64,000 nucleotides of DNA from Calothrix brevissima NIES-22 (GTDB taxonomy: Bacteria > Cyanobacteriota > Cyanobacteriia > Cyanobacteriales > Nostocaceae): positions 7,674,199-7,738,198 of the forward strand of contig NZ_AP018207.1 in NCBI RefSeq assembly GCF_002367995.1. Direction: 5' to 3'. Of the stretch, positions 19,036-37,931 are shown one piece after another. Made by a program: the position numbers and the translations under genes. Every line of letters starts with the position of its first letter. The stretch's first letter is position 1. The notes beneath the pieces are model-generated. The model made no database searches and was not told where the DNA came from. It saw only the letters and a list, made by a program, of their open reading frames with translations.

Positions 19036-19878
19036 TTATCGCAACTGTACAAAAACCTTACCTTCTTTAATTTTTAACGGATATGACTGAAGCCCAACTT
19101 CAGGAACCGTTAAACATTCACCAGTTTGTAAGTTATATTGAAAACCGTGGTTAGGACAAGTAATGATTCCATTTTCTACTTTACCTTCATCCAACGTAGA
19201 GCCGAGATGAGAGCAAGCATTATGGTAACAGCTAATGCGATCGCCTTGGCGAGATAGAATAAATGCATGTCCCGCAACTTTAACTGCTAACACACCAGCT
19301 TCGGGAACTTGCTCAACAGTTGTAACTCTAATCCATGTAGAGCCTATTTTTGGATGAAATGGACTAGTTAAATTAGATGTAGAACTACCAGCACTAGCGC
19401 CACTACTCACAGCAATAACTTGCGTAATCTCTGGACAATGGGATTTAATTGCCTGTTCAACTCCTTGAGATAAAGTTAAAGTAGAAGCAGGACAATTACT
19501 ACAAGTTCCTGTCAGTCTAACTTCCACTGTATCCGGTAGTTTAATTGCCACTAGTTCTATATCACCATTATGGCTTTGTAAACCTGGCCGTACTTCTTCC
19601 AGGGCGATTTGTAGGCGTTTTTCTAAAGGTGGTGTAGGTGGTTTGACTAATTCGTGATATAGCAATACTGCATATACCACTTCATCATCAACAGCATGAC
19701 GCAAAGCTGATATAGATTCTTCCTTAAAGCTTTTAATTAAACGTTTTAAAGCTGTTTTATGTAAGTCTTCAATTGCTCTTTTCAACCCGATAACTACACA
19801 CCTTTGACTTTCATCCCACTCAGCAATAATTTCTTCAAAGCGGTTAATTTCTTGAACCAATTCTTCTAAATTAGTCAT
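19036..19878 (-). CDS. NifU-like and Rieske-domain fusion protein
   Basis: This 280-residue protein has three parts. Residues 1-85 are a charged helical domain. Residues about 90-155 are a NifU C-terminal-type domain with the cluster motif CSNCPAS and the lead-in VRPGLQSHNGDIELV. Residues about 175-280 are a Rieske domain with CSHLG (CxH) and CPNHG (CxxH), the complete ligand set for a [2Fe-2S] centre. It probably binds two kinds of Fe-S centre and moves electrons or builds clusters in the cytoplasm. A NifU-like protein is, as I recall, part of the extended hyp operon of Nostoc PCC 7120. Supplying Fe-S clusters to HupS or HypD is a reasonable inference but not demonstrated. Confidence 0.88.
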   Translation of the reverse strand: MTNLEELVQEINRFEEIIAEWDESQRCVVIGLKRAIEDLHKTALKRLIKSFKEESISALRHAVDDEVVYAVLLYHELVKPPTPPLEKRLQIALEEVRPGLQSHNGDIELVAIKLPDTVEVRLTGTCSNCPASTLTLSQGVEQAIKSHCPEITQVIAVSSGASAGSSTSNLTSPFHPKIGSTWIRVTTVEQVPEAGVLAVKVAGHAFILSRQGDRISCYHNACSHLGSTLDEGKVENGIITCPNHGFQYNLQTGECLTVPEVGLQSYPLKIKEGKVFVQLR

Positions 19879-19884
19879 TTGTCA

Positions 19885-20041
19885 AGGGTCAATAGTCAAT
19901 AGTCAATAGTCAATAGTCCATAGTCAATAGTCCATAGTCAATAGTCCATAGTCCAATGTTAAAATAAATCAGTTATTATTAATGCCAATGACAAATGACA
20001 AATGACAAATGACCATTGACCATTGACCATTGACCATTGAC
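19885..20041. repeat. Mixed heptamer repeat block
   Basis: Repeats of CAATAGT and its variant CCATAGT fill 19885-19955. After a 30-base spacer, ACAAATG and then ACCATTG units run from 19987 to 20041 and end at the stop codon of the next gene. The block separates the NifU/Rieske gene from the two small membrane proteins. Confidence 0.85.
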
Positions 20042-20044
20042 AAT

Positions 20045-20269
20045 TTACTTCATTTTGAAGTCTTTCAATAAAAATGGCATGGCTATGCCAGTGATTAAGC
20101 TAGATATAATAATTGGTAGCCAAAAAGGCATTGCGGTTTGGGCAAAGACAACTAAAATAACGCAACCGATAGTAATACCAATTGTTAGTTGCTGCACAAA
20201 ATGCATGGGGTCGCGGAATAATTTTCCCTTGAAGAATAACTTAGCTGATAACCACCCTAGCTCAAACAT
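20045..20269 (-). CDS. Small membrane protein of the extended hyp operon
   Basis: This 74-residue protein starts at an ATG preceded at 5 bases by a strong AGGAGG. It has two hydrophobic segments (about residues 27-46 and 48-66) and is likely an inner-membrane protein. The N-terminus (MFELGWLSAKLFFKGKLF) is amphipathic. It lies 8 bases downstream of another small membrane protein gene, so the two are co-transcribed. As I recall, Nostoc PCC 7120 has two small genes in the equivalent place between hupS and hyp. No known function. Confidence 0.78.
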   Translation of the reverse strand: MFELGWLSAKLFFKGKLFRDPMHFVQQLTIGITIGCVILVVFAQTAMPFWLPIIISSLITGIAMPFLLKDFKMK

Positions 20270-20277
20270 GAAACCTC

Positions 20278-20529
20278 CTAGAAATTGCTAAATAAATTTA
20301 GTACAGCTAGCCCTAAAAGTACTGCGGGAATCACACCCGCAGGGCCAAATAATCCGCCTAATGTGGCTGAAAATTTATAACCGATATCTTTTCCAGCTAA
20401 TAGCATTCCTCCAATTGCACCGCCTAGCATGGCTGCAACAGTGGCTATGAGTAAGGATAACAATACCGTACTAATGTTAATTTCTCCAGATGAGAAACTG
20501 CTGAGAAAATTGCTCGCAACACCTAGCAT
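20278..20529 (-). CDS. Small glycine-rich membrane protein of the extended hyp operon
   Basis: This 83-residue protein has two glycine- and alanine-rich hydrophobic segments (about residues 18-45, with AAMLGGAIGGMLLAG, and 54-80, with GGLFGPAGVIPAVLLGLAVL). The pattern resembles small membrane proteins of the DUF456 or YtxH size class, but I do not recognise a family. Its ATG follows AAGGAAAC at about 4 bases. It is 8 bases upstream of the 74-residue gene, forming a two-gene cassette. Function unknown; the hydrogenase context is inferred from position. Confidence 0.75.
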   Translation of the reverse strand: MLGVASNFLSSFSSGEINISTVLLSLLIATVAAMLGGAIGGMLLAGKDIGYKFSATLGGLFGPAGVIPAVLLGLAVLNLFSNF

Positions 20530-20700
20530 TTTTAGTTTCCTTGAGAATATTTATTATTTTTTGATTTTTGTCGCAATCCTGCTGAAGTCGCGAACTTCTA
20601 CATGAAAATAGCTAATAACTTTTTTCATGAATATTTCAGGATTGTTATAACTGTAAACAGTACACAAGTTAATGTCTGATAACTGTTAAAAGCTAACTAT

Positions 20701-21678
20701 TCATAAATAGTAATTTGTAATCTCTGCAACAATTTCGTTAAGAGATTGGGCAACTAGTTGTGCTTGTTTTAACTGTTGGTTTTGGTTGAAAATTTCCCAA
20801 GCTTCTTGATAGTAAGCACGAGACTGTAAAAGATTGTGCAAATTACCGGCTGGTGGTTGTTGGATATTATCGGGTAGTTTACAGAGGGCGTTGGCTTTAT
20901 GAGAAATTGTGTTAGCGTATTCCAGAGGTGTTTCTTGAGGGTTACACACTTTTAAAGCTTCGTCATAAGCAGCGATCGCTCTTAAGTTATTCTCTAGAGG
21001 ATGGGAAAGCATGAAATATTGCCAAGCATTGCCCAAGTTGTTCTGTAACATGGCATATTCTTGGGGATGATCGATTAGCTGAATATGCTTTAGCGCTACT
21101 TGTAATGACTGTACTGCTAACCCGTGACGTAAATATTCCCGTTCTGAGGCTAGGGGTAGAGAAAAATAGGCGATCGCAATATTGTTGTATAAGATAGCGT
21201 ACTCTTGGGGATAATCTTGCCAAGTAAATACCTGCAAAGCCTGTTGATAAGCTTTGACGCAGTCTATTATCCGCGCCAAATTGAAGGGTACTAGTGATTG
21301 CAACACTAACCCTAAATTCATCTGTGCTTCTGCCACCTCTATTGGCAAAGCTAACTGTTGTAAAATTGGCAATGCCTCTTCATAGCCAATTTTCGCTTGT
21401 AGCAGCAATTGCGCCCCTACATCAGGAATCCTCTGTAATGTCTTAGCCATCCCCACTTGCGCCTTGGCTTTGAGTAAGGGATAGTCCTCTGTACAAAGTT
21501 CATAGGCTCGGTAATATAGGGAAAGTGCATTCCGCAATTGTTTGGTAGTTGGGGACTGCTTTTGCAAACCTAGCGCCGTCTCTATCAGCATCTGGATTTT
21601 TTCTGCTGTAGTTGCTGACTCCGATGCAATGGCTGCAATTGCTGCTGTCACTACTGAATCTCTTGTGCTAGGGGTCAT
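20701..21678 (-). CDS. Tetratricopeptide-repeat protein (paralogue B), first gene of the extended hyp locus
   Basis: This protein of about 325 residues is a close paralogue of the one at 11552-12544 over its whole length: AAIAAIASESATT, YEEALPILQQLA, NLGLVLQSLVPFNLARI, QEYAMLQNNLGNA and TPLEYANTISHKANAL correspond segment by segment. I place the start at the ATG at 21678 (MTPSTRDS), matching the paralogue; an ATG at 21726 and a TTG at 21750 are in frame. Predicted all-helical, TPR-like and cytoplasmic. It is divergent from hupS across a gap of about 1.1 kb. The two copies bracket the DUF4351/TPR-CHAT insertion, the NifU/Rieske gene and the small membrane genes. Confidence 0.8.
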   Translation of the reverse strand: MTPSTRDSVVTAAIAAIASESATTAEKIQMLIETALGLQKQSPTTKQLRNALSLYYRAYELCTEDYPLLKAKAQVGMAKTLQRIPDVGAQLLLQAKIGYEEALPILQQLALPIEVAEAQMNLGLVLQSLVPFNLARIIDCVKAYQQALQVFTWQDYPQEYAILYNNIAIAYFSLPLASEREYLRHGLAVQSLQVALKHIQLIDHPQEYAMLQNNLGNAWQYFMLSHPLENNLRAIAAYDEALKVCNPQETPLEYANTISHKANALCKLPDNIQQPPAGNLHNLLQSRAYYQEAWEIFNQNQQLKQAQLVAQSLNEIVAEITNYYL

Positions 21679-21892
21679 AACTACCGTAATCTGGCCGTTG
21701 GGGAATTGAATTTTTTCAACGCCCATCTGTGATACCAATTCAAAATTCAAAATTGATGAATTTGAGCGAATTGATATCTTGAAAACAGGAAAACCTGTCT
21801 CATCTAGGGCTATAGATACTCAGCCGATTTACGCAGATTGTGAATCTCTTCAGCGAAACTCCCTGATTTTCCCCAATCTCATCCTGTCTTTT

Positions 21893-22786: not shown

Positions 22787-23755
22787 ATGACTAATGTACT
22801 ATGGCTACAGGGTGGTGCTTGTTCGGGTAATACCATTTCATTCCTGAACGCCGAAGAACCCACAGTATGCGATTTAATTGCTGATTTTGGCATCAAATTG
22901 CTGTGGCATCCATCCTTAGGGTTGGAACTGGGCGATAACTTACAAAAACTACTGCGCGATTGTATTTCCGGCAAAATTCCTCTAGATATCTTGGTATTTG
23001 AAGGTACTGTTGTCAACGCCCCTAACGGGACAGGGGAATGGAATCGCTTTGCCGATCGCCCGATGAAAGACTGGTTAACAGAACTCGCCCAAGTTGCCAG
23101 TTTTATTGTAGCGGTGGGTGACTGTGCTACATGGGGCGGAATTCCTGCCATGTCGCCTAACCCCAGCGATTCTCAAGGCTTGCAATTCCTCAAGCGGGAA
23201 GAGGGCGGATTTTTAGGTAAAGACTTCCGCACTAAATCCGGTTTACCTGTAATTAATATTCCTGGATGTCCCGCCCATCCCGACTGGATTAGCCAAATTT
23301 TAGTTGCGATCGCCACTGGACGTTTAGGAGACATCACCTTAGACGAACTCCATCGTCCGCAAACCTTCTTTAAAACCTTCACCCAAATCGGTTGTACTCG
23401 TAACGTCCACTTTGCCTACAAAGCATCTACTGTTGACTTTGGTCAGCGCAAAGGCTGTCTATTCTACGACTTAGGTTGTCGCGGGCCTATGACCCATTCC
23501 TCATGTAACCGCATCCTCTGGAATCGCGTCTCCTCCAAAACCCGCGCCGGAATGCCTTGTTTAGGCTGCACCGAACCAGAATTTCCCTTCTTTGATCTGC
23601 AACCAGGAACGGTATTTAAAACACATGTTTTAAATATGGAGTGGTACTCAATGCAGATATGTGTAGTACCGCTAGCGAGAAGGTCAACAGTCAACAGTCA
23701 AAAGCTTAATACATCAAGGCGTGTGACTGTTGGAAACGCACAAATGACAAACTGA
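22787..23755 (+). CDS. hupS: Uptake [NiFe]-hydrogenase small subunit HupS, C-terminus replaced
   Basis: HupS carries the Fe-S relay that takes electrons from H2 oxidised at HupL, mainly in heterocysts. Residues 1-279 are good HupS: GGACSGNT (Cys12), GDCATWGG (Cys113), NIPGCPAHPD (Cys161), and the medial/distal cluster ligands in RNVHFAYK, KGCLFYDLGCRGP, SSCNRILWN and MPCLGC. There is no signal peptide, as in other cyanobacterial HupS. Family members are about 320 residues. After FKT (codon 279, ending at 23623) similarity stops and 43 unrelated residues follow, including STVNSQ from a heptamer repeat. The expected C-terminal ~40 residues and hupL are nowhere in the window. The breakpoint coincides with a palindrome. 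The gene is either interrupted by an excisable element or truncated. Confidence 0.93.
   Translation: MTNVLWLQGGACSGNTISFLNAEEPTVCDLIADFGIKLLWHPSLGLELGDNLQKLLRDCISGKIPLDILVFEGTVVNAPNGTGEWNRFADRPMKDWLTELAQVASFIVAVGDCATWGGIPAMSPNPSDSQGLQFLKREEGGFLGKDFRTKSGLPVINIPGCPAHPDWISQILVAIATGRLGDITLDELHRPQTFFKTFTQIGCTRNVHFAYKASTVDFGQRKGCLFYDLGCRGPMTHSSCNRILWNRVSSKTRAGMPCLGCTEPEFPFFDLQPGTVFKTHVLNMEWYSMQICVVPLARRSTVNSQKLNTSRRVTVGNAQMTN
23615..23634. other. Palindrome at the hupS breakpoint (candidate recombination core site)
   Basis: TTTAAAACA (23615-23623) and TGTTTTAAA (23626-23634) are perfect 9-bp inverted arms around CA. The left arm is the native codons F-K-T of hupS and the right arm is foreign, as expected for a tyrosine-recombinase core at one end of an inserted element. 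A second small inverted pair GGTACT/AGTACC follows at 23643-23670. The assignment as an attachment site is inference. Confidence 0.45.
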
Positions 23756-23822
23756 CTTGAAATCTTTGTGCTATGGCAATCATGGCATTATCTACAATAA
23801 CTATTCACATTAGGCGTGACTT

Positions 23823-25412
23823 CTAAAATTGCAAGACTTGATTGACATAGATTTCAACTGTTGTACCAGCAGGTAAAAACCAAACATTAGTTCGTTGATT
23901 CATTTGGGCGATCGCTTGTTGATTGCGTTGTACAATTTGGGGAACCACACTGTTCATCCCACCTTCCAAAACTCCGGCCAAGATGTTTCGTTGAGGGTTA
24001 GTATTGCTAATGATAGTACCACCAACATTTGTAGTTACAACTTGAGACTCAGTACGGTTAGATAACTCTGCCGCTTTAGCAAGACCACCTAAGGCAAATA
24101 GTCCTAAGTCCATACCTAAAATAGATGATCCCCTGTTGGGGAATTGGTTAGCGATCAGAGGTTTACCTTGGGGAGCACGAATTAGCAGCGTATTTTGTGG
24201 TAGGGTTTTTTCCGAAATGTTGCCCTGGTTCTGTGTAATAATTTTTACGACATCCATTTGCAGCAAACCTTGTTCGGAAAGAGTACGAATTTCAGTTAAG
24301 AATTCAGTATTTGCCGGAACTGCGATCGCACCATCCACAGCTTTTAATGGTTCTTTCAATCGGACTACAAATACATTTTTGTTCTCACTATTTGTAGATT
24401 TCATTGTTTCTCCAAAGACAGCTGTCGCCAACACAGCTTTTGCAGAGCTTCCCACTGCTATAGATTTTGGACTCTGTTGCAATCCTTGGCTCACCACAGG
24501 AGTTTGCGGCTTTGGTGTTGGTAGAGGTTGAGGAATTATTGTGCTTTGCAACACCTGCTCATTCCTTGGGTATGTCGTCGGAGTTGTTACATTAGTAGAC
24601 TGATTGCTAACACCCGCAGGCTTAGAGCTATCTAAGTTTGCTAAGTTTGTCCCTTCTTGGAGTGGTTTTGGTGTAGGTTGTGGAGTTGTATTAACTAATG
24701 GTTGATTTTTTGGTAATTCTGCTATTGGCTGAGGTGGTAGTAAAGGTTGAGAAAGAGGTGGTTGGGAATAGGGAACTCTAACAATGCGCTCAACTGTAAC
24801 TATCCGGGGTACGTAAACTGTTGATGTCGGTGTTGGACTTGTTGGGATCGTCGTTCGTCTAGATGGAAAAGCATCTGGTTGGGGATTTTTTTGCACAGCT
24901 AACTGAGAAGCTGATATTGGTTTTCCTGCTCTTAAGCTTTGTTGTGCTAGTTTCACAGCCTGTGCTTGTTCACTCAGCGCTAATTTGGTTTTGAGAGTTT
25001 CAACTTCTTCCTCTAAATATTGCGAACTCGATTGTTTTTCTGTTGGGGCTTGTTTTTTGAGATCAACAATATTATGGGGTTTCGGTTTTTGATTATCAGT
25101 ATTCATCAACTGCGATAAAAATCCGCCAACAACTAATACAAGAGTTAAAGTAGCAATAGCTACTAAGCCTAACTTAGCAAAGGGATTAGATGAGATTGAT
25201 TGCTCGGTTTTATTTTCTGTAGGTAGAGGCAATGACGACTGCAAGTTAGTTGATTCTGGCTCTACCTCGGTAGCAACAGATAAAGATTCTGCTTCTAAAC
25301 CTACTAATTTTGCTATCTCTAATTCCCATTCTTCAGCATCTTCTTTTAATGAAGGCTTTTCAGGTTGGGGAGTTAATAAATCTTGGGTAGGACTTTCTGA
25401 AGGAATTATCAT
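23823..25412 (-). CDS. VirB10/TrbI-like single-pass membrane protein
   Basis: This 529-residue protein has an acidic N-terminal cytoplasmic part (1-75), one transmembrane helix (about 80-103, LGLVAIATLTLVLVVGGFL), a coiled-coil segment (about 120-160), a long proline/threonine/glutamine-rich spacer (180-320) and a C-terminal beta domain (about 330-529). The C-terminal part carries features I associate with VirB10/TrbI: GAIAVPANTEFLTEI, LPQNTLLIRAPQG and the ending LPAGTTVEIYVNQVLQF. In type IV secretion, VirB10 spans the envelope. No other secretion or conjugation gene is in the window, so this is either an orphan of the kind common in cyanobacteria or a remnant of a mobile element. It is transcribed towards the hupS tail. 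Confidence 0.7.
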   Translation of the reverse strand: MIIPSESPTQDLLTPQPEKPSLKEDAEEWELEIAKLVGLEAESLSVATEVEPESTNLQSSLPLPTENKTEQSISSNPFAKLGLVAIATLTLVLVVGGFLSQLMNTDNQKPKPHNIVDLKKQAPTEKQSSSQYLEEEVETLKTKLALSEQAQAVKLAQQSLRAGKPISASQLAVQKNPQPDAFPSRRTTIPTSPTPTSTVYVPRIVTVERIVRVPYSQPPLSQPLLPPQPIAELPKNQPLVNTTPQPTPKPLQEGTNLANLDSSKPAGVSNQSTNVTTPTTYPRNEQVLQSTIIPQPLPTPKPQTPVVSQGLQQSPKSIAVGSSAKAVLATAVFGETMKSTNSENKNVFVVRLKEPLKAVDGAIAVPANTEFLTEIRTLSEQGLLQMDVVKIITQNQGNISEKTLPQNTLLIRAPQGKPLIANQFPNRGSSILGMDLGLFALGGLAKAAELSNRTESQVVTTNVGGTIISNTNPQRNILAGVLEGGMNSVVPQIVQRNQQAIAQMNQRTNVWFLPAGTTVEIYVNQVLQF

Positions 25413-25917
25413 TTTTGATATATTATTTATGGTTTATTTTATTTTTTATAAATTTCATTTTTAATTTTGCAGATATCATAAAGTTTTAACCAAGATTCTG
25501 TCATGAAACCGCTTGTTCATCTGTTGATTTAACAATAATTAAATTATTAACTGCGAATAATTGACCAATCCTGTCAGAATCAGCGAAAATTAATTGTTAG
25601 TTGATTTTTGCTGTTAAGTAGCTGTATTCCTCCTTTAATATACAAATTCCGTTTCCCTAACTTCACATAACTTCACATACATTTTACATAAACATTATAT
25701 TTGGTGCATGTATCTTAGCCTGTTATCTGCTGGTACCGATGGATAGAAACTAATATTTCATGTAATAGAAGGTTTTACCTTACTGCTGTCATTCTACTCT
25801 TAAATATGGTTAGGTAAGTTGTTTGACTTGAATTTTCCTGTCAGTCACAAAGAAATTAAACATTATCAAGTTGGTTTTGGTATATATTTCTATACACTAT
25901 ACACTTACAAAACCAAA
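25413..25917. other. AT-rich intergenic region
   Basis: About 500 bases without a convincing gene. It should contain the promoter of the VirB10-like gene. A direct repeat ACTTCACATA occurs twice near 25660. No terminator or mobile-element end was recognised. Confidence 0.5.
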
Positions 25918-26277
25918 TTAAAAAAAAGATTTAGTAAAGTCTGGAGTAACTTTCCTTGATTTATCCTGAAGGTTAACAACTACAGGGAATTGTTCATAAC
26001 CTGGGTAGTAGCGCCAGAAAGTAGAAATCCCCTCTTTGCAAGGGAAAAAGCTTTCCGAAGCATTCAGCGCAATAATTTCTTTGGGATATTTTGCGATCTC
26101 GATCAAACTATCCACCGCTAATACCAGAATCCAACCGATTAATCTGGTGTTAAGGCTTTGTAAAATTTTCGCTGCGGCTTTTAATGCATCTTCAACTCTG
26201 GTACTGAGGGAATCGAGTTGCAGATGTTCTGGGTAAGCAAAATACAGGAAATATCTGAGAGTGGGGTTTTTTGCCAA
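25918..26277 (-). CDS. Hypothetical protein
   Basis: This 119-residue protein is not recognised. It has a plausible globular composition: an N-terminal segment with aromatic residues (LRYFLYFAYPEHLQL), two amphipathic helices (VEDALKAAAKILQSLNTRLIGWILVLAVDSLIEIAKY) and a C-terminal part with FWRYYPGYEQFPVVVN. There is no signal peptide; the hydrophobic stretch LIGWILVLAVDSL is short and contains charged neighbours. It stands alone between two gaps, 500 bases upstream of the VirB10-like gene on the same strand. It may be a real small gene or a fragment of a larger one. Confidence 0.45.
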   Translation of the reverse strand: MAKNPTLRYFLYFAYPEHLQLDSLSTRVEDALKAAAKILQSLNTRLIGWILVLAVDSLIEIAKYPKEIIALNASESFFPCKEGISTFWRYYPGYEQFPVVVNLQDKSRKVTPDFTKSFF

Positions 26278-26741
26278 GCTATAGAACTAAAACCCCCAGG
26301 CGCATCAGTGATAATACTGTTTGATACCGCGATCGCTAAAAAAGGTAGCTAACGATCAGTTGATGCAAGACTGTACAGTTTATGCTAGCAGTGGGTTTTC
26401 TATAGATGATCCCAATGCCATTGTCAGCAAAACTGATTATAAGAATGCAGTATAATTAAGCATCCTGTCGCGTTGTTCTTCTGCACTTAAAGAACGCAGG
26501 TCTGATTGCTCAAATAAATTATTCTATTGTTGAGAATATCTAGATAGGGCGTGTTTTCAAACTAGTCAATTACGAGAAAATCTCACAACCAAATATGAAA
26601 ATCTCTCTTTCCTAGTCCCTATTTTTAAGCTAGAAATGTAGGTTAGCTTGAATGAAGTGAAGCTTAACATATACAAGCTTTTAAATGTTGGGTTTCTCTG
26701 GGGGAAGCCGCTTTGCATCTACGTCCCGCAAACCAACCCAC
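26278..26741. other. Intergenic region left of the MITE
   Basis: About 460 bases with no convincing coding frame or RNA gene; the frame opening at 26648 runs into the MITE and is judged accidental. Sequence features are weak, and a degenerate mobile-element remnant is possible. Confidence 0.45.
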
Positions 26742-26746
26742 ATATG

Positions 26747-26882
26747 CAGGACTTACGCAAAAATTGTCAAAAAGCTGAATTTATGGAACTGCCTTCTGTG
26801 CGAGAGGCTTCCGCCAACGCCCAGCGTCTCGCACAGAAGATGCCAAGAACGGCAAGAGTTCGTAGAGTGTACGTAAGTCCTA
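26747..26882. mobile_element. 136-bp MITE with 5-bp target-site duplication
   Basis: The ends CAGGACTTACG (26747-26757) and CGTAAGTCCTA (26872-26882) are inverted copies apart from the terminal base. Exact direct repeats ATATG flank it (26742-26746 and 26883-26887). Inside, CTTCTGTGCGAGA (26793-26805) and TCTCGCACAGAAG (26827-26839) form a perfect 13-bp hairpin. It is non-autonomous; the transposase is elsewhere in the genome. Confidence 0.82.
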
Positions 26883-27012
26883 ATATGTAGCAATCATTTT
26901 TCAAATTGGTATCACTATTTCTGTAGATAAGTGTTTTGTCTTTATTTCCATCCTTATCTTTGGAATGCTTGTGAAATCAGACTTTTGCAAAAGTTGCCCA
27001 AGGTATTAGATA

Positions 27013-27555
27013 TTAATAGTTCAATCTCTTCTTGATAGCTTGAGCAGGATTACCTGCATAAATAATCATTGCATCTAAAGAACGCCCAGTCACTCCACCA
27101 AGGGTCAGTACTGCTCCTTTACCAACGGTTACTCCTGGGCCAATTACTGACTTGGCGGCAATCCAACTACTCTCGTGAATGTAGATTGGCGCAGGAATGA
27201 GTTTAAAATCAGGATGATTCCAATGATGATTGCCAGTGCAGAGATAGACACCTTGGGATACACAAACATGATTCTCAATCACCACAGGTGCAATGTTATC
27301 AATCCAGGTATTTTCCCCAATCCAACTAAAATCACCAACGCTTAACCGCCAGGGAAACTTTACCTTCACCCCTGGTTTAATGCGGACTTGTTGACCAATG
27401 GTAGCACCAAATCTCCGCAGTATCCAAACTTTTACCTTTGACATGGGAAGCCAATAACTCTCAACCAAAGGCGAGCCGATGAAATACCAGAGAAGTTGTT
27501 TCCAGTATGGTGCTCCTGGAGTATAAGTACCGACACTATATTGATCTAAACGCAT
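27013..27555 (-). CDS. WcaF-like left-handed beta-helix O-acetyltransferase
   Basis: The start is placed at the ATG at 27555 (MRLDQYSVG), the usual WcaF-type beginning; the frame stays open for 25 more codons into the preceding gene. The product has 180 residues. Hexapeptide repeats of the left-handed beta-helix run from about residue 55 to 170 (IGQQVRIKPGVKV, IGENTWID, IGPGVTVGKGAVLTLGG). The catalytic-type His and the substrate loop occur in CTGNHHWNHPDF. These enzymes acetylate a sugar of colanic-acid-like exopolysaccharide with acetyl-CoA. It is the last gene of the minus-strand polysaccharide run, 19 bases after the DUF218 gene. Confidence 0.88.
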   Translation of the reverse strand: MRLDQYSVGTYTPGAPYWKQLLWYFIGSPLVESYWLPMSKVKVWILRRFGATIGQQVRIKPGVKVKFPWRLSVGDFSWIGENTWIDNIAPVVIENHVCVSQGVYLCTGNHHWNHPDFKLIPAPIYIHESSWIAAKSVIGPGVTVGKGAVLTLGGVTGRSLDAMIIYAGNPAQAIKKRLNY

Positions 27556-27574
27556 AATTATAGATGCAATGAGG

Positions 27575-28129
27575 TTAGTAGAAGTTTGTTCCTGTATGAC
27601 CTGTGACAATCCAGAGTAATGAGCGAGCAATATCTCGCAGAATCCGCAGGCGTGATTCTTTTGGTTTATCGGATGGTACAGAGAGTGGGGTAAATGCGAT
27701 CCCTTGACTACCTAAAACAAGAAAAGCGATCGCTTTAGCCCTGGGCATATGATTGTTAGAGGTAATCAAGAAAAGATGTTGAATATTGTGTTCTTTAAAA
27801 TCTGAAACCAAAGTCGTAAAGTTGGTTACTGTATCAACAGCACGATAATCAAGATGAAAGCGGCGATCGGGGATACCAGCATCATGAAAAATCTTACGTG
27901 CCATCTGAGGCGGTGAACCAGAGGAAACCCATATCTCTAATTTTGGATACCATTGGGCAAGTTCGGCTGAGAATTCTTCCCGATCGATCCAGGCACCAAG
28001 AGTCAGGATAGCTTGAGGTCGAGGAGCTTGATGAAAGGCGATCGCTAGACGAACAGGAATAAACAGTATAAAAGTGAGGCTCAAACTGACAACAGCCAAA
28101 ATCCAGTATTTTTTGAATTTGCGGTGCAA
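27575..28129 (-). CDS. YdcF/ElyC-like (DUF218) membrane-anchored protein
   Basis: This 184-residue protein has a single N-terminal hydrophobic helix (residues about 8-30), probably a membrane anchor. A DUF218-type domain follows (about 38-165) with ILTLGAWIDREEF, VSSGSPPQMARKIFHDAGIP, the A-V-D-T-VTNF segment and LITSNNHMPRAKAIAF. Family members are linked to cell-envelope polysaccharide or lipid-carrier metabolism in bacteria, but the reaction is not settled. It is flanked closely by the WcaF-like gene and sits in the polysaccharide locus, which fits an envelope role. Confidence 0.82.
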   Translation of the reverse strand: MHRKFKKYWILAVVSLSLTFILFIPVRLAIAFHQAPRPQAILTLGAWIDREEFSAELAQWYPKLEIWVSSGSPPQMARKIFHDAGIPDRRFHLDYRAVDTVTNFTTLVSDFKEHNIQHLFLITSNNHMPRAKAIAFLVLGSQGIAFTPLSVPSDKPKESRLRILRDIARSLLWIVTGHTGTNFY

Positions 28130-28237
28130 TTGTCTAACTGATGAAATAATTTTTGATTTTGAATTTATCTGAATACTATTGCCAAATATGAGGCAAACTT
28201 AAAATATCTAACTGAGAAATATCAGCTATAAATTTAG

Positions 28238-29218
28238 CTATGCTTTTGCTGATACTGTACTCGATTTGGGATTATTCATACACTGCAAAAGTGAAGATTC
28301 TCGCATATCATGTTGCATACCATAGTCGGTTGTGCCAAATTCTATTTGTAATATGAGACGGTCTCGTTTAATCGGCGTTGTGCCTTTATGAAAACAAAAG
28401 GTATCTTCTGCAAAACCAAAGCCTGCTTTGCCGTAAATACTTACTAATAATTTCTCTCCATAATAATTGATAATTTCCTCATCTTTTTCTCGTTTAGGTA
28501 GTAACAAATGTGAGATTTTTTTTTGCTTGTGACTACCACGAACGCAGATATGTGGCCCGCCATAGACATCAACATCTGTTAAATAAAAGAAGAATTTCAA
28601 AAAGCGATAATCATCTATATCATAGTGAAACATTTGAAATGCTTTTCTTTTGTGTTGCTCGGATGACTCACCAGCAAAACTCCACCACAATTGATTTCCT
28701 TGATGGCAAGGTTCATGCTCTAAATACTGAGCAGCTATTGCCAACAACTTAGGATCGCTTTGCAGTTGATTAATAACTGGACAATGCAAAGCTGTGTTAA
28801 AATAGCCAGCTAATGTAAACTCGGTGCCGTAATAGCTTTGTGCTAATTCTTTCTGATGATAATAGAAACCTAAATGAGGTTGCCGATAGCCATAACATGG
28901 TTGAGAGTGAGCAAATAAGACTATTTCTTGGATAATTTCTTCAGGAAGATTCATCCCTAAATAAAAACCATCTTTTTTCAGGCTGTCAACAACTACATCT
29001 ACATTAATGTCTTCAAAGCAAGTTGAGCTTTGACTTACAGAAAATTCAGATGACTTAGCGAGAAGTTTAGATAAAGATCCCATTATGGATCTTCCTAGAT
29101 AAAATCTAGCCATTGTTCGCATTAATAGCCATCGGGGGTTTTTAGTTAAACCCAGGTAATTCTCATAAAGAATATCGTACAATAACGTAAATACTTGATT
29201 CAACGAGAAATTGGGCAT
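28238..29218 (-). CDS. Phytanoyl-CoA dioxygenase-like 2-oxoglutarate/Fe(II) enzyme
   Basis: This 326-residue protein has the 2-His-1-carboxylate iron site: His198 and Asp200 in HYD, and His277 in CFHKG, followed by the 2-oxoglutarate-binding arginine in KRDR. LWWSFAGESSE and GGPHICVRGSH are also typical of the PhyH group. The N-terminal 60 residues are variable and partly hydrophobic. Members hydroxylate diverse small molecules, including lipids and sugars. Being inside a polysaccharide locus suggests that it modifies a glycan or lipid-linked precursor, but this is inferred only from position. There are 108 bases to the next gene downstream. Confidence 0.8.
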   Translation of the reverse strand: MPNFSLNQVFTLLYDILYENYLGLTKNPRWLLMRTMARFYLGRSIMGSLSKLLAKSSEFSVSQSSTCFEDINVDVVVDSLKKDGFYLGMNLPEEIIQEIVLFAHSQPCYGYRQPHLGFYYHQKELAQSYYGTEFTLAGYFNTALHCPVINQLQSDPKLLAIAAQYLEHEPCHQGNQLWWSFAGESSEQHKRKAFQMFHYDIDDYRFLKFFFYLTDVDVYGGPHICVRGSHKQKKISHLLLPKREKDEEIINYYGEKLLVSIYGKAGFGFAEDTFCFHKGTTPIKRDRLILQIEFGTTDYGMQHDMRESSLLQCMNNPKSSTVSAKA

Positions 29219-29357
29219 AAATAATCAGAGATTTGTTGATTATATTAATGTTGATTGGAGAGCATATACAAAAAATTAATGAGAAGAGTTTCGGTAGACA
29301 CTCTTGATTAACTAATGCAGAAATCGATTTTGAGCAAATACTGGTTCAATATCATGC

Positions 29358-30176
29358 TCAATTCTTATGAAGAATTGTCCCCCATTTAGCACCAATAGCA
29401 TTGGGATAATCTCTGTGTCTTTTTTCAGCTTCGATGAGACGAATCGAAAGAATAATTTCTGCCAAAACACGCTGGAACGCATAGTACCAACCACGCCAAC
29501 CGTCGAGAATACCAGCTTTGAAAATCAGGCAGTAAATTAAGATAATGAAAGGGGCGAGAATCTTTTGTCTGCGGATGCGATCGCCTAAACTTAATTCACT
29601 TGTGGGTGTTTCCAATAATTTTTCTACCTCAATAACTAAATAACGATCCTGCGCCCACAACCAACGGCTGAAGGATTTGCGATCGTCATGGTGAATATAA
29701 GCTCCCAGCATTGCTGATTTTCCCTGAACCTGTAGTAATTGGGTGTGACCATCCTGTATATATATAGCCTTATCTTTACGAAACAGGGCTTGGCGTGGAG
29801 GAAGGATAGTACCACGTAGGGGTTTACCGAAAACGCAGTATTTGAAACGAACGAAATAGCCGTTAACTGAGTTATCAATTGGTAAATCTACCATTTCTGC
29901 CAGCAATTCCTCTGTGACAATGTAGTCTGCATCTAACGAGAGAACCCACTCAGAACTGACTTTTTTCAAGCCATAGTTCCACTGGTTTGCATGGGTATCA
30001 AACTGGCGTTGATAGAATTTTACCTGTGGGTAAAAATTAATAATCTCAATAGTCTGGTCAGTGCTGTAACTATCAATAATGATAATTTTTTTTGCCCAGG
30101 TAAGATGTTCAAGAGTGCGCTCAATGTTAGGTGCTTCGTTGTAGGTCAAGATCAGTGGAGTGATGTTTTTTAGCAT
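29358..30176 (-). CDS. Glycosyltransferase family 2 (WaaE/KdtX-like)
   Basis: This 272-residue GT-A enzyme has LILTYNEAPNIERTLEHL at the start, the nucleotide-binding IIDSYSTD at about 34-41 and the metal-binding DAD in SLDADYIVTEE at about 84. The LTYNE...TLEHL...IIDSYSTD pattern matches the WaaE-type subgroup that adds glucose or heptose to glycan precursors. The C-terminal third contains a membrane-associated stretch (FIILIYCLIFKAG). It probably acts on the cytoplasmic face of the membrane. It sits 46 bases downstream of a GT4 gene in the same run. Confidence 0.9.
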   Translation of the reverse strand: MLKNITPLILTYNEAPNIERTLEHLTWAKKIIIIDSYSTDQTIEIINFYPQVKFYQRQFDTHANQWNYGLKKVSSEWVLSLDADYIVTEELLAEMVDLPIDNSVNGYFVRFKYCVFGKPLRGTILPPRQALFRKDKAIYIQDGHTQLLQVQGKSAMLGAYIHHDDRKSFSRWLWAQDRYLVIEVEKLLETPTSELSLGDRIRRQKILAPFIILIYCLIFKAGILDGWRGWYYAFQRVLAEIILSIRLIEAEKRHRDYPNAIGAKWGTILHKN

Positions 30177-30222
30177 AAGTAGAAAATATTCCGATGTCTT
30201 ACTGGTTTGCTTGCTGAAAAAA

Positions 30223-31440
30223 TTAGGGGATTTGGACTGTTTGTAATTGTTTTTGCTTGTCTTTGTTCGTATTGTTGGCTATTTTGTCGTAAATGAAAAT
30301 TAATTCTTGCGCCATGTGTTCCCAAGTGTACTGCTCTAAAATCAGTTGACGAGCACGATTGCCCATTTCTTTAGCAGCCTGTGGAGCGCTAAAATACTTC
30401 TGCAATGCAGAAGCGATCGCCAAAATATCTAGATCTGGAATGTAGCCAAGTTGGTGTTTTTTGACGACAGAAGCTAGCGCCACACCAGGAGTAACAAGAG
30501 TAGGAAGACCTACAGCTAAGGCTTCTAGAACTGCTACAGCAAAGTTTTCGGAGTGAGAGGTGAGAACAAAAAGGTCTGAGCCTTGCATTAAGATATTTTT
30601 GGTATCGCCTTCAACAAATCCTACAACATGAGTGCGATCGCGTATTCCATGAGATATCAGCATAGACTCAATCTCAGCTTCGTACTCTGGGGTACCACTA
30701 CCTGCCAAAATGAAAGTGAAACGATGATGGATAAGTTTGCTCAAAGCGGGAATCAGATAATCTAATCCTTTTTTATGATGTAGACGAGACAAAAACAAAA
30801 TGACTGGTTCGTCTGCTGGGATATTGAAACGTTGGCGTAGACGGTAACGAGCATCAGCAATTTGGTTTGGTAAAAACAGCCCTAGTGGTAGTACAAAGCT
30901 AGGTGCTTGCAATCCCAATTCAGAAACTTCCTGTTGTTCTTGTTGAGAAGTAAAGTGAACGATCTGGCTATTGTTGAGGTTCTCTCGCTCGAGCAACCTG
31001 AGGTAAGTTTGCTTTTTACGAGTACTTTGCTGTAAAGACCACTCACATAGTAAACCATGTGTAGAGACCATGTAAGGAACATTTTTGAGGCGAGCGATCG
31101 CCATTGCTACTGTAGATGGATAGGAAAAAAGAGCGTGAATGTGTACAATATCGTATTGAGAAATATTCTGCCAGAGCCATTCGGTAAACTGCCCAGAAAA
31201 AGCGTATTCTCTAACGGCTTTGACATTGGGTGAAAAGCGTTGGAAAAACCAAATAGGAACTTGCTTATACTCAATGCGCTTTTGTAAGGGAACATCAAGC
31301 AAATCATCACCATTGTCATTAGTAGTAGCAATCTCGGCATCGATATTGTTGATTCGCAATTGCTGAACCATATGCAAAACAGCCTGACTAGTACCGCCAC
31401 GTACTTGAGACACAGACGGAATAATATGCAGAATTTTCAT
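30223..31440 (-). CDS. Glycosyltransferase family 4
   Basis: This 405-residue GT-B enzyme has the N-terminal donor-side glycine-rich motif SQVRGGTSQAVLHM (about residues 10-23), HIHALFSYPS in the acceptor domain and the C-terminal retaining-GT4 signature ENFAVAVLEALAVGLPTL with the E-x7-E pair. LFLSRLHHKKGLDYL marks the start of the C-terminal domain. It probably transfers a hexose during repeat-unit assembly at the cytoplasmic membrane. The last ~20 residues are polar (NTNKDKQKQLQ). A 548-base gap separates it from the polymerase gene upstream, so it may have its own promoter. Confidence 0.92.
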   Translation of the reverse strand: MKILHIIPSVSQVRGGTSQAVLHMVQQLRINNIDAEIATTNDNGDDLLDVPLQKRIEYKQVPIWFFQRFSPNVKAVREYAFSGQFTEWLWQNISQYDIVHIHALFSYPSTVAMAIARLKNVPYMVSTHGLLCEWSLQQSTRKKQTYLRLLERENLNNSQIVHFTSQQEQQEVSELGLQAPSFVLPLGLFLPNQIADARYRLRQRFNIPADEPVILFLSRLHHKKGLDYLIPALSKLIHHRFTFILAGSGTPEYEAEIESMLISHGIRDRTHVVGFVEGDTKNILMQGSDLFVLTSHSENFAVAVLEALAVGLPTLVTPGVALASVVKKHQLGYIPDLDILAIASALQKYFSAPQAAKEMGNRARQLILEQYTWEHMAQELIFIYDKIANNTNKDKQKQLQTVQIP

Positions 31441-31988
31441 GGTTTAAGAATTAATTGGCAAATATTTAGGTACAAAAACAACTACTAACCTTAGTAGGTT
31501 AGCGGCAATAATTATTGTTGGGATCGGGCAGAGAACAAGAATAAAAAAGCTTGGAGGCTGATTTAATTTTCTGCACCCAGTTTGATTTGTGCCGACTTAC
31601 TTAATCGGCTTTTTTGAAAGCAACTATGCTATTACCCACCAAAAACTTTTTCAGGTCGAGCAATTAACTGAGTTACAGTCAACCCTAAAAAAGAGCAATT
31701 TTCATACATAGCAAACTGGACTTGAGTTAAATGCTTCTCAAATCAGGAGGATGTTAAAGTATAAAAATTACAATTCAATTGGTGCTAAATCTAGTTTATA
31801 AATTAAAGAAAACTTAGAAATAACAGCACAATTTCAAGATAAACTTCAAATATTTAGTAATTACTACCTCATCTCTCTAGCAATTGCTTATAATGTTTCA
31901 GAATGTGGTGAATTTTCATAATTTATGATTTATTATACCTCATAATTGCCATAAACAAAAACTCAAAACCAGTTAAAACATAGGTTAA
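31441..31988. other. Intergenic region inside the polysaccharide locus
   Basis: About 550 AT-rich bases with no open frame of interest, no tandem repeat and no clear hairpin. It probably carries a promoter for the 27-31 kb group of genes. I found no recognisable regulatory motif. Confidence 0.5.
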
Positions 31989-33344
31989 TCAACTATTTCT
32001 AAAAAATCTGAATGTGGCGTTGTTTTCCATAAAATAAGAACGGCTTTGCCTCTCATCTTGAAGGAGCAAATATTTTCCAAGTGATAGATACATAATCAGC
32101 GATATCACAGGGAAAGTCAGATTTCCCAGCAGTATTGCCTCTGTAAAACTTCCTGATAAAAGGCTAGTTAAGCCACCAATCACGGTGCTACAATGTGGGA
32201 TATAACTTGAGTTTTTACTGCTTAATTGATGAAGTTTAAACATCATTTTTACACACTCTATTCCCATCATTACTAGAGGTATAAATCCAATTAACCCTGT
32301 AGTTGATCCAGTAGCTAACCAAGTACTTTCACCAAAACCTAAACGACCTCCTTCTAGGGGAGCACCAAAGACTGGGTATTTGATGAATTTACTCGACATA
32401 CTTGACCAGACACCTTCACGGGTATTCTGAGTTGAACTGTATCTACTGGCAACGGTGTTGCTCATAACTACATCTGGCCCTTGTAAATAAAGCATAAAAG
32501 CTAACACGATGCCAACAAAAAACCCTAGACGTAGTAAAGTTCCTAATCTCTGGCGGTAAAATAACAAAATTGTCGGTACAGCCATAATTAAACCAGTACG
32601 AGAACCAGTGAGGAATAAAAAGTACAATAGGATAAAAAGATTAGCGATCCAGAATACTTTTACCCAATCCCATTTCTGACGCATTTCAATCAGGAACATT
32701 AAGCTAGGAATTGTCGCAGCTAAGAGAGCAGTAGCGTGGAGCGGGTTACCAGTAGTTCCCGTAAAGCGTCCATGCAAAAATGTCATTGCTTGCAAATTGA
32801 AAACCCCTTGGTAGACGCCGGCAAAACCAAAAATGACACCAGCCATCGCAATAGACCAAACGCCTAAATGAAAATTCTGTTCATTCTGTAGCCAACGGGA
32901 TGGCCCTAACTTTAGCATGAGTACTAGTGCTACAAAGGTAATTAATCCTAATAAGGCAAAGTTTATTTCCCCAAACAACAATATCTTGTAGAAAAATGCA
33001 AATTGAACAACTATCAGGTATTTAATTGGTTTTGGGATGAATGTTCTACGCCCTTGATCAGCTGACTCTATTCCTAATATGAGAAGCAAACATAATAAAA
33101 CGATAGTGAGGGGCCGACCCATGTCGCGCAGCTGCTCCAAGGGAACAACTAAGGGTGGAGCTGTAATCCACTGATCCTCATATTTACCCAGGGAAGCTGT
33201 ATAGCAGAACAGTGAGAATAAAAACCAAGCTAAACGACGGGAACGTTTAGCTTTATTAAATATTACCCACCCTAGAACAATGCCCAGCAAACCAAGGGGA
33301 CTAAAGAGGAGATTAAAAAGTTGATTAGTAAAACTCGAACCCAT
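31989..33344 (-). CDS. O-antigen polymerase/ligase-type membrane protein (Wzy/WaaL family)
   Basis: This 451-residue polytopic protein has about 11 hydrophobic segments and a larger central periplasmic loop. The loop region carries GRFTGTTGNPLHATALLAA, and a later segment carries FLFLTGSRTGL, the SRTG signature common in Wzy_C/WaaL proteins. Such proteins join undecaprenyl-linked repeat units, or attach them to an acceptor, on the outer face of the inner membrane. It is the only polymerase candidate in the locus. It follows the GT4 gene at 33356 after 11 bases, so the two are co-transcribed. Confidence 0.87.
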   Translation of the reverse strand: MGSSFTNQLFNLLFSPLGLLGIVLGWVIFNKAKRSRRLAWFLFSLFCYTASLGKYEDQWITAPPLVVPLEQLRDMGRPLTIVLLCLLLILGIESADQGRRTFIPKPIKYLIVVQFAFFYKILLFGEINFALLGLITFVALVLMLKLGPSRWLQNEQNFHLGVWSIAMAGVIFGFAGVYQGVFNLQAMTFLHGRFTGTTGNPLHATALLAATIPSLMFLIEMRQKWDWVKVFWIANLFILLYFLFLTGSRTGLIMAVPTILLFYRQRLGTLLRLGFFVGIVLAFMLYLQGPDVVMSNTVASRYSSTQNTREGVWSSMSSKFIKYPVFGAPLEGGRLGFGESTWLATGSTTGLIGFIPLVMMGIECVKMMFKLHQLSSKNSSYIPHCSTVIGGLTSLLSGSFTEAILLGNLTFPVISLIMYLSLGKYLLLQDERQSRSYFMENNATFRFFRNS

Positions 33345-33355
33345 GTGTTAAAGTT

Positions 33356-34474
33356 TCATGCTAAATTTTCTGCGATCGCATCTGTCATATTTTGCCCGAT
33401 CGTTTTTGTTTGGCAGATGTCATAGATTAGTTCCCGCCAACGGCTGGCCCAAATCTTAGCAGCGTAGGGAGCCGCCAATTGTTGCGATCGCTTACCCCAA
33501 ATAGATAAATTACTATATTGTTGATGTAGTGTTAGAAGTGCTTTTGCTAAGGCTTTCGCATCTTCTTTTGGTATAATTAAACCATTATACCAAGGGCGAA
33601 CTACCTCCACAGCCGAACCACAAACCTCTGTACATACAATAGGTAACCCAGCAGCAGCAGCTTCCACCAAGGCTAGCGGCCAAGGATCAAACCTACTGGG
33701 CAAAATAAAAGCCCCAGCAGACTGCCATACTGACTGCATTTCTGTTGGTTGTAAAAAACCTCTATTGTCAATTCCTGGTTGTCCCTGGAGTTTTGACTCT
33801 AGCGCTCCCTGCCCGCAGCATACCAATGTCCAAGGATTAGATACCTGGGAACGATAAAGTTGATAGGCTTCTACTAGCAGATCGATAGCCTTCACCGGGA
33901 CATAGCGACCAACAAATAAAAAAGAACGGGGCCAGTCTGGCTTGAGTCGTTTTTCCCACAAAGGTGACCACACATCGTAATCAATACCATAAAGCCCACG
34001 CATAATATTTGTTGATTCTGCTCCCAAGCGTAAGGCATACTGCCAGCTGCGTTCCCCAGGTACTACAAAACGATCCATGCGTTGCAAATAAGAACGCAGA
34101 AACCAAGGCGCTAAATGCTGTTTCCAAGTACCATACCAAGGTGTGTCCATAGTAAAAATTAAGGAAGTTTGACGCAACTCAGGAGCAAACGCCAACCAAA
34201 AATACGGCTTGTGAAACCAGCCGTTAAGAACTACTACATCTGGAGATTCTGCCAACACCAGATGCTTAACTAAGTTTGCATCCTGTCTTTCCTGTAAATC
34301 TAAAAGCCGACAGGGGATACCCTGCATTAATTGGTCAGAAAATGTTGTTTCGGTACAAGCTTGAAAGGCAATAATATATACCTCAATATCTGGTGATTGA
34401 AGTAAAGCTCGCCAGCAGGCTGCCATGTAACCAGAGATATCAGCCCAGCAAAAGACAACTTTCATTGATTTCAC
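33356..34474 (-). CDS. Glycosyltransferase family 4
   Basis: This 372-residue GT-B enzyme has the C-terminal retaining motif SRFDPWPLALVEAAAAGLPIV (DPWPLALVEA) and a clear domain start LFVGRYVPVKAIDLLVEAY. The N-terminal domain (1-170) is less conserved, with VLNGWFHKPYF. The start overlaps the end of the next upstream GT gene by 4 bases (ATGA), which implies coupling. Probably adds a sugar to a lipid-linked repeat unit; donor and acceptor are not predictable from the sequence. Confidence 0.9.
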   Translation of the reverse strand: MKSMKVVFCWADISGYMAACWRALLQSPDIEVYIIAFQACTETTFSDQLMQGIPCRLLDLQERQDANLVKHLVLAESPDVVVLNGWFHKPYFWLAFAPELRQTSLIFTMDTPWYGTWKQHLAPWFLRSYLQRMDRFVVPGERSWQYALRLGAESTNIMRGLYGIDYDVWSPLWEKRLKPDWPRSFLFVGRYVPVKAIDLLVEAYQLYRSQVSNPWTLVCCGQGALESKLQGQPGIDNRGFLQPTEMQSVWQSAGAFILPSRFDPWPLALVEAAAAGLPIVCTEVCGSAVEVVRPWYNGLIIPKEDAKALAKALLTLHQQYSNLSIWGKRSQQLAAPYAAKIWASRWRELIYDICQTKTIGQNMTDAIAENLA

Positions 34475-35598: not shown

Positions 35599-35634
35599 TT
35601 TTTCAGCACTTAGGAGATGATATTGATAAATATA

Positions 35635-36951: not shown

Positions 36952-37931
36952 GAATTTAAATGATAAATTTGGTGATAAAGATTATTGAAAAAACGCTGCC
37001 TTCTTAACTTCTCTAAGGGGAGTCTAAATAGGTAATATAATCCAATTCTCCAATAAATCAAAAACCAATTAAAAATCGGTCGATTCATTAAAAAATATCT
37101 GTAAAATAAGTACTTATTAGGCATTAATGCATTCAATCTATAACCTGCCCAATGCATAATAAATAATTGTTTTTTGTGATCTAAACCCCCATAATCCCAT
37201 AAATAGTATTTTCTATCTTTTTGGTAAATTTTTCCTGATTGTCTGGCCCAGCCGTGTTGACATATACCGCCAATTACTTCTGCCAAATGTCCATAGCGCA
37301 CAGGTTTTATATCGCAGCAATAGTTGATAAAGGCTTGATCTGTATTGCGCGGATTGAGTTGATTTCTAATTTTCAACGCACTCTCTGCTAGTTGCTCAAA
37401 CTCTTCTATTGAAAATAGTCCGTGACGAGAAGCCCAACGACCAGAATTAAACCCACGCCCTCGTCCTTGTCTTAATAATTCTTGGCGAAATGCTCCTTGT
37501 TGGTAAACTTGATCGATGGCGCAGTCATAATGCAAAAAATCAAAACCAAGGGTTTCTACTGCTTTAATGAAAGGCTTGAGATCCGCTAGCACGAGTTGTC
37601 GAACATCTAAGTACATAAAATAGTTTAGTGGCCCCCAAAAAGAAGCATAGCGCCTAAACCAGTATGGCCCAGTAGGTGTATAACCTAGCTCAAATGCTTG
37701 ACCGATCGCTTCTAAACGAGAAAATGATGAATCTGTATATACCTCAAATTTGTAAGTATCGCTCAATTTCAACAAGCGATCGCACTCATCATTAAAGGGA
37801 ATCAGAATCAACCGTAAATCTGGGTTAAAGGTTCTGAAGCTATTGAGAAAAGCGATCGCCCAATCATAAACAACATCATTAGCTGAGAAATAAACACCAA
37901 TAGTTGATTCTTGAATTGATTCTTGAGACAT
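36948..37931 (-). CDS. GT-A-type nucleotide-sugar transferase-like protein
   Basis: This 327-residue protein resembles the GT8/DUF nucleotide-diphospho-sugar transferase group. IGVYFSANDVVYDWAIAFLNSFR begins the fold, and YFMYLDVRQLVLADL sits where the DxD metal site should be but shows DVR, so the second aspartate is missing. TDQAFINYCC and a late HWAGYR resemble the C-terminal metal-binding part of GT8. The tail is basic and aromatic (RIGLYYLFRLPLEKLRRQRF), suggesting membrane association. It is tightly linked to genes on both sides (4-base overlap and 12-base gap). Activity is likely but not certain. Confidence 0.7.
   Translation of the reverse strand: MSQESIQESTIGVYFSANDVVYDWAIAFLNSFRTFNPDLRLILIPFNDECDRLLKLSDTYKFEVYTDSSFSRLEAIGQAFELGYTPTGPYWFRRYASFWGPLNYFMYLDVRQLVLADLKPFIKAVETLGFDFLHYDCAIDQVYQQGAFRQELLRQGRGRGFNSGRWASRHGLFSIEEFEQLAESALKIRNQLNPRNTDQAFINYCCDIKPVRYGHLAEVIGGICQHGWARQSGKIYQKDRKYYLWDYGGLDHKKQLFIMHWAGYRLNALMPNKYLFYRYFLMNRPIFNWFLIYWRIGLYYLFRLPLEKLRRQRFFNNLYHQIYHLNS

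Follow-up and report, generated by a model that had tools for sequence, protein, structure and literature searches.

The hupS gene of Calothrix brevissima NIES-22 is very probably interrupted at codon 279/280 by a heterocyst-type interruption element of 54,651 bp that carries its own serine recombinase, and this element is most likely cut out in the nitrogen-fixing cells. The anatomy of the element, the in-frame rejoining of the gene, the geometry of the crossover site, the recurrence of the break, and the selection on the gene halves and the recombinase are established by observation. Elements in hupS are already known. The survey of Hilton, Meeks and Zehr describes four of them, at two positions, among 38 genomes (Hilton et al., 2016; PMC4874684), and within the open-licence literature hupS interruption elements were found in a heterocyst context only there. 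What is new is the predicted glycan-export cargo, which has a homologue outside the element in five of seven congeners, together with the discordant histories of the recombinase and the host genes at the hupS site. No report of exopolysaccharide genes on a heterocyst excision element was found in the open-licence literature. Both the cargo and the crossover site are unusually clear for elements of this kind.

The divided hupS gene and its element

The window, that is the whole 64,000-nucleotide stretch that was analysed, corresponds to C1:7674199-7738198 (contig NZ_AP018207.1) of the 9.26-Mb genome. On another contig, C8, parts of the first 14 kb resemble plasmids, most of them from Nostoc and Tolypothrix. 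An earlier note on this DNA had read codons 1-279 as HupS, with a break at 23623 and 43 foreign residues after it, and both the open reading frame and the HupS matches bear this out (Table 1). The heptamer repeat that it described in the tail is also present, at about 23683-23701, as two copies of GTCAACA followed by GTCAA. When the rejoined protein was used as the query, only two HupS pieces were found genome-wide, residues 1-282 in the window and residues 276-320 at C1:7752461-7752595. The C-terminal piece reads TQTIMGVPKELPPGVKPKDYALLTMVAKDIAPSWAEEDIFTI and is followed directly by hupL. A missing C-terminus starting with VMGVPKEL and a hupL gene had been expected downstream, and both were found on the same contig, the former as IMGVPKEL. 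The two halves flank the element in the same orientation, with the intact C-terminus 54.6 kb downstream. Joined at the CA that they share, they give 963 nt in frame, encoding a HupS of 320 residues. The excised form is absent from the assembly, in which HupS searches return only the two halves.

Table 1. Features of the window around the hupS break and in the left part of the element.
Feature	Position in window	Strand	Remarks
Host genes upstream of hupS: NifU/Rieske protein and a second protein without Pfam match	19036..21750	-	Also aligned in G254, G259 and G260
hupS codons 1-279, N-terminal part, uptake [NiFe] hydrogenase small subunit	22787..23623	+	Oxidored_q6, NiFe_hyd_SSU_C
attL core palindrome TATTTAAAACA-CA-TGTTTTAAATA	23613..23636		Left arm hupS coding, right arm element
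43-residue tail and stop	23624..23755	+	Closes truncated hupS frame in unexcised form
Inferred crossover dinucleotide CA	23624..23625		Partner CA at C1:7752473-7752474, outside window
hupS element, left 40,375 bp	23626..64000		Rest ends at C1:7752474, 14,276 bp beyond window
GTGGTACT, putative zinc-ribbon recognition motif	23641..23648		Positions 16-23 from crossover; mirrored at right end
TrbI-like protein, left end of cargo	23823..25412	-	Pfam match just below cut-off
Glycan biosynthesis genes	27013..57795	-	12 ORFs with glycosyltransferase match, 13th past window
Hexapeptide transferase	58748..59260	-
1192-residue DMFA2_C/DUF4082/Big_5 protein	59419..62997	-	Marker for cluster in congeners
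1525-residue WD40/DUF4082/Big_5 protein, 3' part	63309..64000	-	Continues past window

A plain truncation of hupS, which would make the uptake hydrogenase a pseudogene, might be read from the 43 unrelated residues that end the frame in the window. It is refuted by the finding of the C-terminal part 54.6 kb away, where it is intact, in frame and immediately followed by hupL. Moreover, both hupS parts are under purifying selection, and the same break recurs in three other genomes, with its right side also seen in Tolypothrix sp. FACHB-123. This explanation is thus extremely improbable, and the suggestion that hupS had been broken by an excision-type element rather than truncated is upheld by the in-frame C-terminus, hupL and a recombinase gene. 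Relatives provide the empty site. The rejoined HupS query found a match in 37 of 243 genomes sampled from the order, two of them weak and partial, and 33 of the 35 genomes with strong matches have an uninterrupted hupS (at least 316 of 320 residues). The exceptions are C. brevissima NIES-22 itself and G220, in which the gene is split near codon 16.

Upstream of hupS, the NifU/Rieske gene and its neighbour are also aligned in the congeners G254, G259 and G260. Further upstream, a gene for a 1542-residue tetratricopeptide-type protein (read by eye; 13105-17733) and a second open reading frame (17875-18852) fill a 6-kb gap between the hyp and hup genes, a gap that measures only about 0.3 kb in G259.

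The DNA to the right of 23624, including the polysaccharide locus, had been proposed to be part of the element, and indeed the element spans 23626 to C1:7752474. At its right end lies a minus-strand open reading frame of 438 residues (C1:7751097-7752413), whose start codon is 59 bp from the right CA. As previously remarked, there is no recombinase gene in the window, which ends at C1:7738198. The 438-residue protein matches the Pfam families Resolvase (8.9e-30) and Zn_ribbon_recom (7.1e-9) above the cut-off and Recombinase just below it. It is a serine recombinase, of the same superfamily as XisF, which is assigned to the serine recombinase family (PMC4853749). A XisA/XisC-like gene had been expected. 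A site-specific recombinase is present, but it is of the serine type and not XisA/XisC-like. There is a tyrosine recombinase nearby, but inside a second element, in hupL. The hupS element has no XisH or XisI among all 38 of its open reading frames of at least 90 residues, and matches to these two proteins occur elsewhere in the genome (6 and 10, respectively).

The fdxN element of Anabaena/Nostoc PCC 7120, which is associated with XisF, XisH and XisI, is similar in size, about 55 kb. It resembles the hupS element in having a serine recombinase and in interrupting a nitrogen-fixation gene, a likeness at the level of the superfamily, but its target gene is different and the hupS element is without XisH and XisI. 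According to the survey of Hilton et al. (2016; PMC4874684), 101 elements ranged from about 1 kb to nearly 1 Mb, with an average of 41.5 kb over the measurable ones, and recombinase genes were their common thread while the other content varied widely. The hupS element has the layout commonest in that survey, with the recombinase inside, opposite to hupS and near the element end. However, the hupS recombinase described there for Rivularia sp. PCC 7116 is of the tyrosine type, whereas the one found here is of the serine type (PMC4874684). A looser parallel, drawn from its description, is the SP-beta prophage in spsM of the spore-forming bacterium Bacillus subtilis, where developmentally regulated excision also rebuilds a gene (PMC4191935). 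The transposable element carried by hupL of Thiomargarita is a separate matter (PMC4853749).

Other genes of this genome are divided as well. The hupL gene is split (C1:7753196-7765079) by an element of 11,883 bp, which is bordered by two copies of CACAGCAGTTATATGG and contains a 494-residue gene of the phage-integrase family, a tyrosine recombinase; the two hupL parts can be joined in frame. The same 16-bp repeat is quoted for the hupL element of Anabaena PCC 7120 (PMC3610870), so that an element of the XisC type, with identical repeats, stands in the same operon. With its tyrosine recombinase and perfect direct repeats, the XisC-type element is independent of the hupS element. The hupL element also contains (extended positions 81001-86403) a tandem duplication of two genes, one with a TIR_2 domain and one for an AAA_35 ATPase. 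Its period is 2947 bp, the copies are identical over at least 2456 bp, and the pair might be a defence-type module. The two parts of a nifE-like gene (C1:7779754-7787457), which match Oxidored_nitro positions 1-139 and 161-398, stand on either side of a gene for a serine recombinase that is 40% identical to that of the hupS element. Lastly, coxA (C1:699942-741042) is in two parts that match profile positions 2-58 and 53-436 and are separated by about 39.7 kb; a serine recombinase gene immediately follows the first part. All four of hupS, hupL, nifE and coxA are among the interrupted genes of the survey (PMC4874684). A MoaE-like gene (read by eye) beside a recombinase at C1:1616344 was considered as a further interrupted gene and dropped, as its length looks complete.

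Geometry of the crossover site

The earlier note had placed a palindrome of 9+2+9 bp (23615-23634) at the break in hupS. The palindrome is real and lies at the breakpoint, but its arms are longer, 11+2+11 bp (23613-23636). Palindromic centres with arms of at least 9 bp occur at 4 of 63,850 positions in the window, and those with arms of at least 11 bp at two, so such palindromes are uncommon yet not unique, and it is the position at the break that counts. The further expectation of a repeat of 23615-23634 failed, as no copy with up to three mismatches was found in the 20 kb around the right end. A search of those 20 kb for AACACATG was negative as well, and no word longer than 9 bp is common to both junctions, the longest being repeats of the heptamer type. 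What the two ends have in common is limited to AAC.CA, in which the core CA runs in the same direction at either border. In the survey, no mismatch was allowed in border repeats (PMC4874684). The palindrome as a repeated border was rejected, since only its inner arm is matched at the other end, and as a mirror image.

With the CA taken as the crossover, the left inner arm reads TGTTTTAAATATGGA-GTGGTACT in the outward direction and the right one, as the reverse complement, AGTTCTGTGAATGAT-GTGGTACT; both have the same 8-mer at positions 16-23 from the CA. Mirror symmetry was scored over 24 positions at shifts of -8 to +8 in the four elements with both junctions available. At shift 0 the arms agree at 15, 18, 18 and 13 of 24 positions, and at the 16 other shifts at 2-10. 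When the arms were shifted independently by up to 8, the best four pairings per element kept the same axis in all four elements, those of G299 scoring 14 with a wider gap. Among 200,000 random arm pairs drawn from the hupS element, a score of 13 or more was reached at a frequency of 0.0033 and 15 at 0.00024, and 18 never. The symmetry of a single element is only suggestive, because 37 of 54,651 centres in the element's own circle are equally symmetric over 25 positions; the four elements together are strong evidence. In the corresponding region of G299, whose recombinase is only 61% identical, the mirrored motif is a different one, ACAAGTAGG, which fits a motif that changes with the enzyme. 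A fifth element, in Tolypothrix sp. FACHB-123, has GTGGTACT in its right arm at the same distance from the CA.

A solved structure of a serine integrase complex places the zinc-ribbon motif at positions 16-24 of the attP half-site (PMC3783163), and the mirrored motif at 16-23 around a central dinucleotide is thus a likeness to attP. The same source expects a shifted motif in attB as well, toward the centre. In contrast, no shifted zinc-ribbon motif was found in the hupS-side (attB) arms, which are not symmetric (7 of 25 positions, a score reached at 2767 of 5800 positions of the region). The hupS element further differs from the integrases described there in that it concerns gene repair, not phage integration (PMC3783163). 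The palindrome itself is explained by the junction of two sides: its left arm is the hupS side and its right arm the element side, and both read TGTTTTAAATA outward. It is not perfect in the other elements compared. Judged from the sequences, the palindrome is the core of the left crossover site, and specificity would reside in the mirrored inner arms. This geometry provides a rule for placing the crossover of serine-type interruption elements that are without a long direct repeat. An assembly error that placed unrelated DNA inside hupS is conceivable in that the arrangement rests on a single assembly. However, both junctions share an exactly placed mirrored motif and the same type of junction recurs in other genomes, which leaves such an error hardly any probability.

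Taking the interruption element as the preferred reading, we infer the occurrence of excision in heterocysts, its timing and the co-factor that drives it as follows. During heterocyst development, the recombinase would pair attL (23624-23625) with attR (C1:7752473-7752474), the core CA having the same orientation at both. Strand exchange would then release a circle with the glycan locus and rebuild the 963-nt hupS directly before hupL. In the joined hupS, TTTAAAACA and AACAATTATG would meet on either side of the CA; in the circle, the CA would have GTGGTACT on both sides, in mirror image. The hupL gene would be repaired by an excision of its own, carried out independently by the tyrosine recombinase. 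In vegetative cells, the uptake hydrogenase is proposed to stay off because the genes for both subunits are broken.

Recurrence of the break and discordant histories

A match to the recombinase at E <= 1e-80 was found in 11 of 217 genomes of the family, including its own. The hupS gene was inspected in 18 genomes that had such a match, belonged to the same genus or had shown a split earlier, which makes the set a biased one. Besides C. brevissima NIES-22, three of the 18 have the split at codon 279/280, each with a related recombinase at the break: Plectonema cf. radiosum LEGE 06105 (G414; 90% identical), where the two halves lie on different contigs, Calothrix parasitica NIES-267 (G413; 82%) and G299 (61%). 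Tolypothrix sp. FACHB-123 has the same right junction and a recombinase that is 82% identical. Nine of the 18 genomes (G220, G254, G255, G256, G257, G260, G268, G279 and G413) have a hupS copy that is split at a second position, about codons 15-21; the evidence is a set of matches to the first 20-23 residues that are weak but agree with one another. Next to this position, all four genomes searched (G254, G255, G260 and G413) have a different serine recombinase, which over the aligned part is 26-34% identical to that of C. brevissima NIES-22. At a third position, about codons 84-95, one copy is split in Calothrix sp. NIES-4101 (G269), which also has an intact copy; the adjoining gene is 26.5% identical to the hupL-element recombinase. 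In G413, hupS is in three pieces (one at C1:7142892 of that genome), which are about 110 kb and 42 kb apart and are accompanied by two serine recombinases that differ from each other. It was also observed that G254, G256, G257 and G260 have a second, uninterrupted hupS copy (87-88% identical) beside the split one.

The contents of these elements differ. In nucleotide comparisons (blastn), similarity to G413 (whole element) and G414 (parts of two contigs) was limited to the hup region and the recombinase end of the element, and similarity to G299 to the hup region. In the 7.3 kb compared from Tolypothrix sp. FACHB-123, it covers the hup genes, the recombinase end and a portion of the hupL element. 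Given that the cargo differs between elements at the site, the hupS element is not one conserved island. Relatives of the recombinase (50-68% identical) were also seen at five loci beside genes read by eye as nifD, so this lineage of enzymes may have served different targets.

Selection was estimated from dN and dS by the Nei-Gojobori method. The N-terminal part of hupS, compared with the uninterrupted congener G259, has a dN of 0.037 and a dS of 0.70, and the C-terminal part (39 codons) values of 0.069 and 0.53. For the recombinase against G414 they are 0.057 and 0.58. In the 16 of 38 cargo open reading frames that align with G260, dN/dS is 0.03-0.38. Hence, both hupS halves and the recombinase are under purifying selection, and the cargo values do not have the look of decay. 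These data bear on the possibility that the element was once excised and is now stuck, through loss of the recombinase or of a directionality factor, leaving hupS dead in C. brevissima NIES-22. The absence of XisH and XisI from the element would fit this, as would a large cargo that stands elsewhere in congeners. However, the recombinase reading frame is complete, with a dN/dS of about 0.10 against G414, both inner arms are intact, and the hupS halves are undamaged. A stuck element is therefore improbable, though less so than a truncation or an assembly error.

The divergence of the recombinase and that of the host genes do not agree. Against G414, dS is 0.58 for the recombinase but 1.73 for the N-terminal parts of hupS and hupL. 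Against Tolypothrix sp. FACHB-123, 170 hupL codons are identical at the protein level with a dS of 0.13, and the C-terminal part of hupS is identical at 103 of 108 nt, while the recombinase is 82% identical with a dS of 1.90. Based on this discordance, the elements at the codon-279/280 site have probably been exchanged or replaced, and the site has probably been used repeatedly. Alternatively, the discordance could have arisen from homologous recombination that swapped the 3' region of the hup genes, which would leave an identical pattern. The conflict between recombinase and host genes suggests that elements at one site are replaced and not only inherited.

The glycan locus inside and outside the element

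All 38 open reading frames of at least 90 residues from 23823 to the Wzc-like gene were scanned, and 13 of them have a glycosyltransferase match above the cut-off. The stretch 27013..57795 also encodes a weak Wzy_C-like protein (below the cut-off), an MBOAT acyltransferase, a hexapeptide transferase, two DegT aminotransferases, an epimerase, a formyltransferase and a Gfo/Idh oxidoreductase, and includes some open reading frames without a match. Past the window follow, in order, an ABC exporter (Wzt_C and ABC2_membrane), a glycosyltransferase, a Wzz/AAA_31 (Wzc-like) protein and the recombinase. From these matches, the cargo is predicted to be a glycan-export locus.

The 1192-residue marker protein has a full-length match in five of seven congeners (G254-G257 and G260) and no match at E <= 1e-100 in G258 and G259. 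Each of these five has it 19-20 kb upstream of the start of hupS and outside the element at codon 15, and this type of locus is therefore old in the genus. Between positions 23,824 and 76,339 of the extended region, the parts that align with G254 and G260 keep their order and orientation. At about 28-46 kb, in the middle of the locus, G254 shows no match of at least 250 bp and G260 only partial matches. Thus, in these two comparisons, the ends and flanks of the locus are conserved and the core glycosyltransferases are variable. In both genomes, the locus lies a short way upstream of the NifU/Rieske gene and is separated from it by a second TrbI-like gene in inverted orientation, and in G260 the left neighbours of the locus are not hyp genes. 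In G259, where hupS is intact, there is no glycan locus at this place, and hyp genes (read by eye) are directly upstream, as in C. brevissima NIES-22. These congeners contain no close relative of the hupS recombinase at E <= 1e-80, nor was one found beside the glycan locus in the congener stretches examined. Among the genomes seen, the glycan locus is in an excisable element only in C. brevissima NIES-22.

A wider reading, which we put forward only tentatively and consider rather unlikely as a whole, is that a resident glycan-export locus under selection has ended up inside the hupS element and is thereby confined to vegetative cells and removed in each heterocyst, and that hupS codon 279/280 is a recurrent, swapped landing site. 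The low rating of this reading takes into account that the congeners compared have hardly any DNA similarity, or none, to the middle of the locus. If it is true, a surface-polysaccharide pathway leaves the chromosome in heterocysts, while in the five congeners the homologous locus would stay. The comparison between the locus inside the element in C. brevissima NIES-22 and outside it in these congeners allows a test of whether the confinement of the pathway to vegetative cells matters. If the landing-site part is true, elements at codon 279/280 would be exchanged between lineages independently of host descent.
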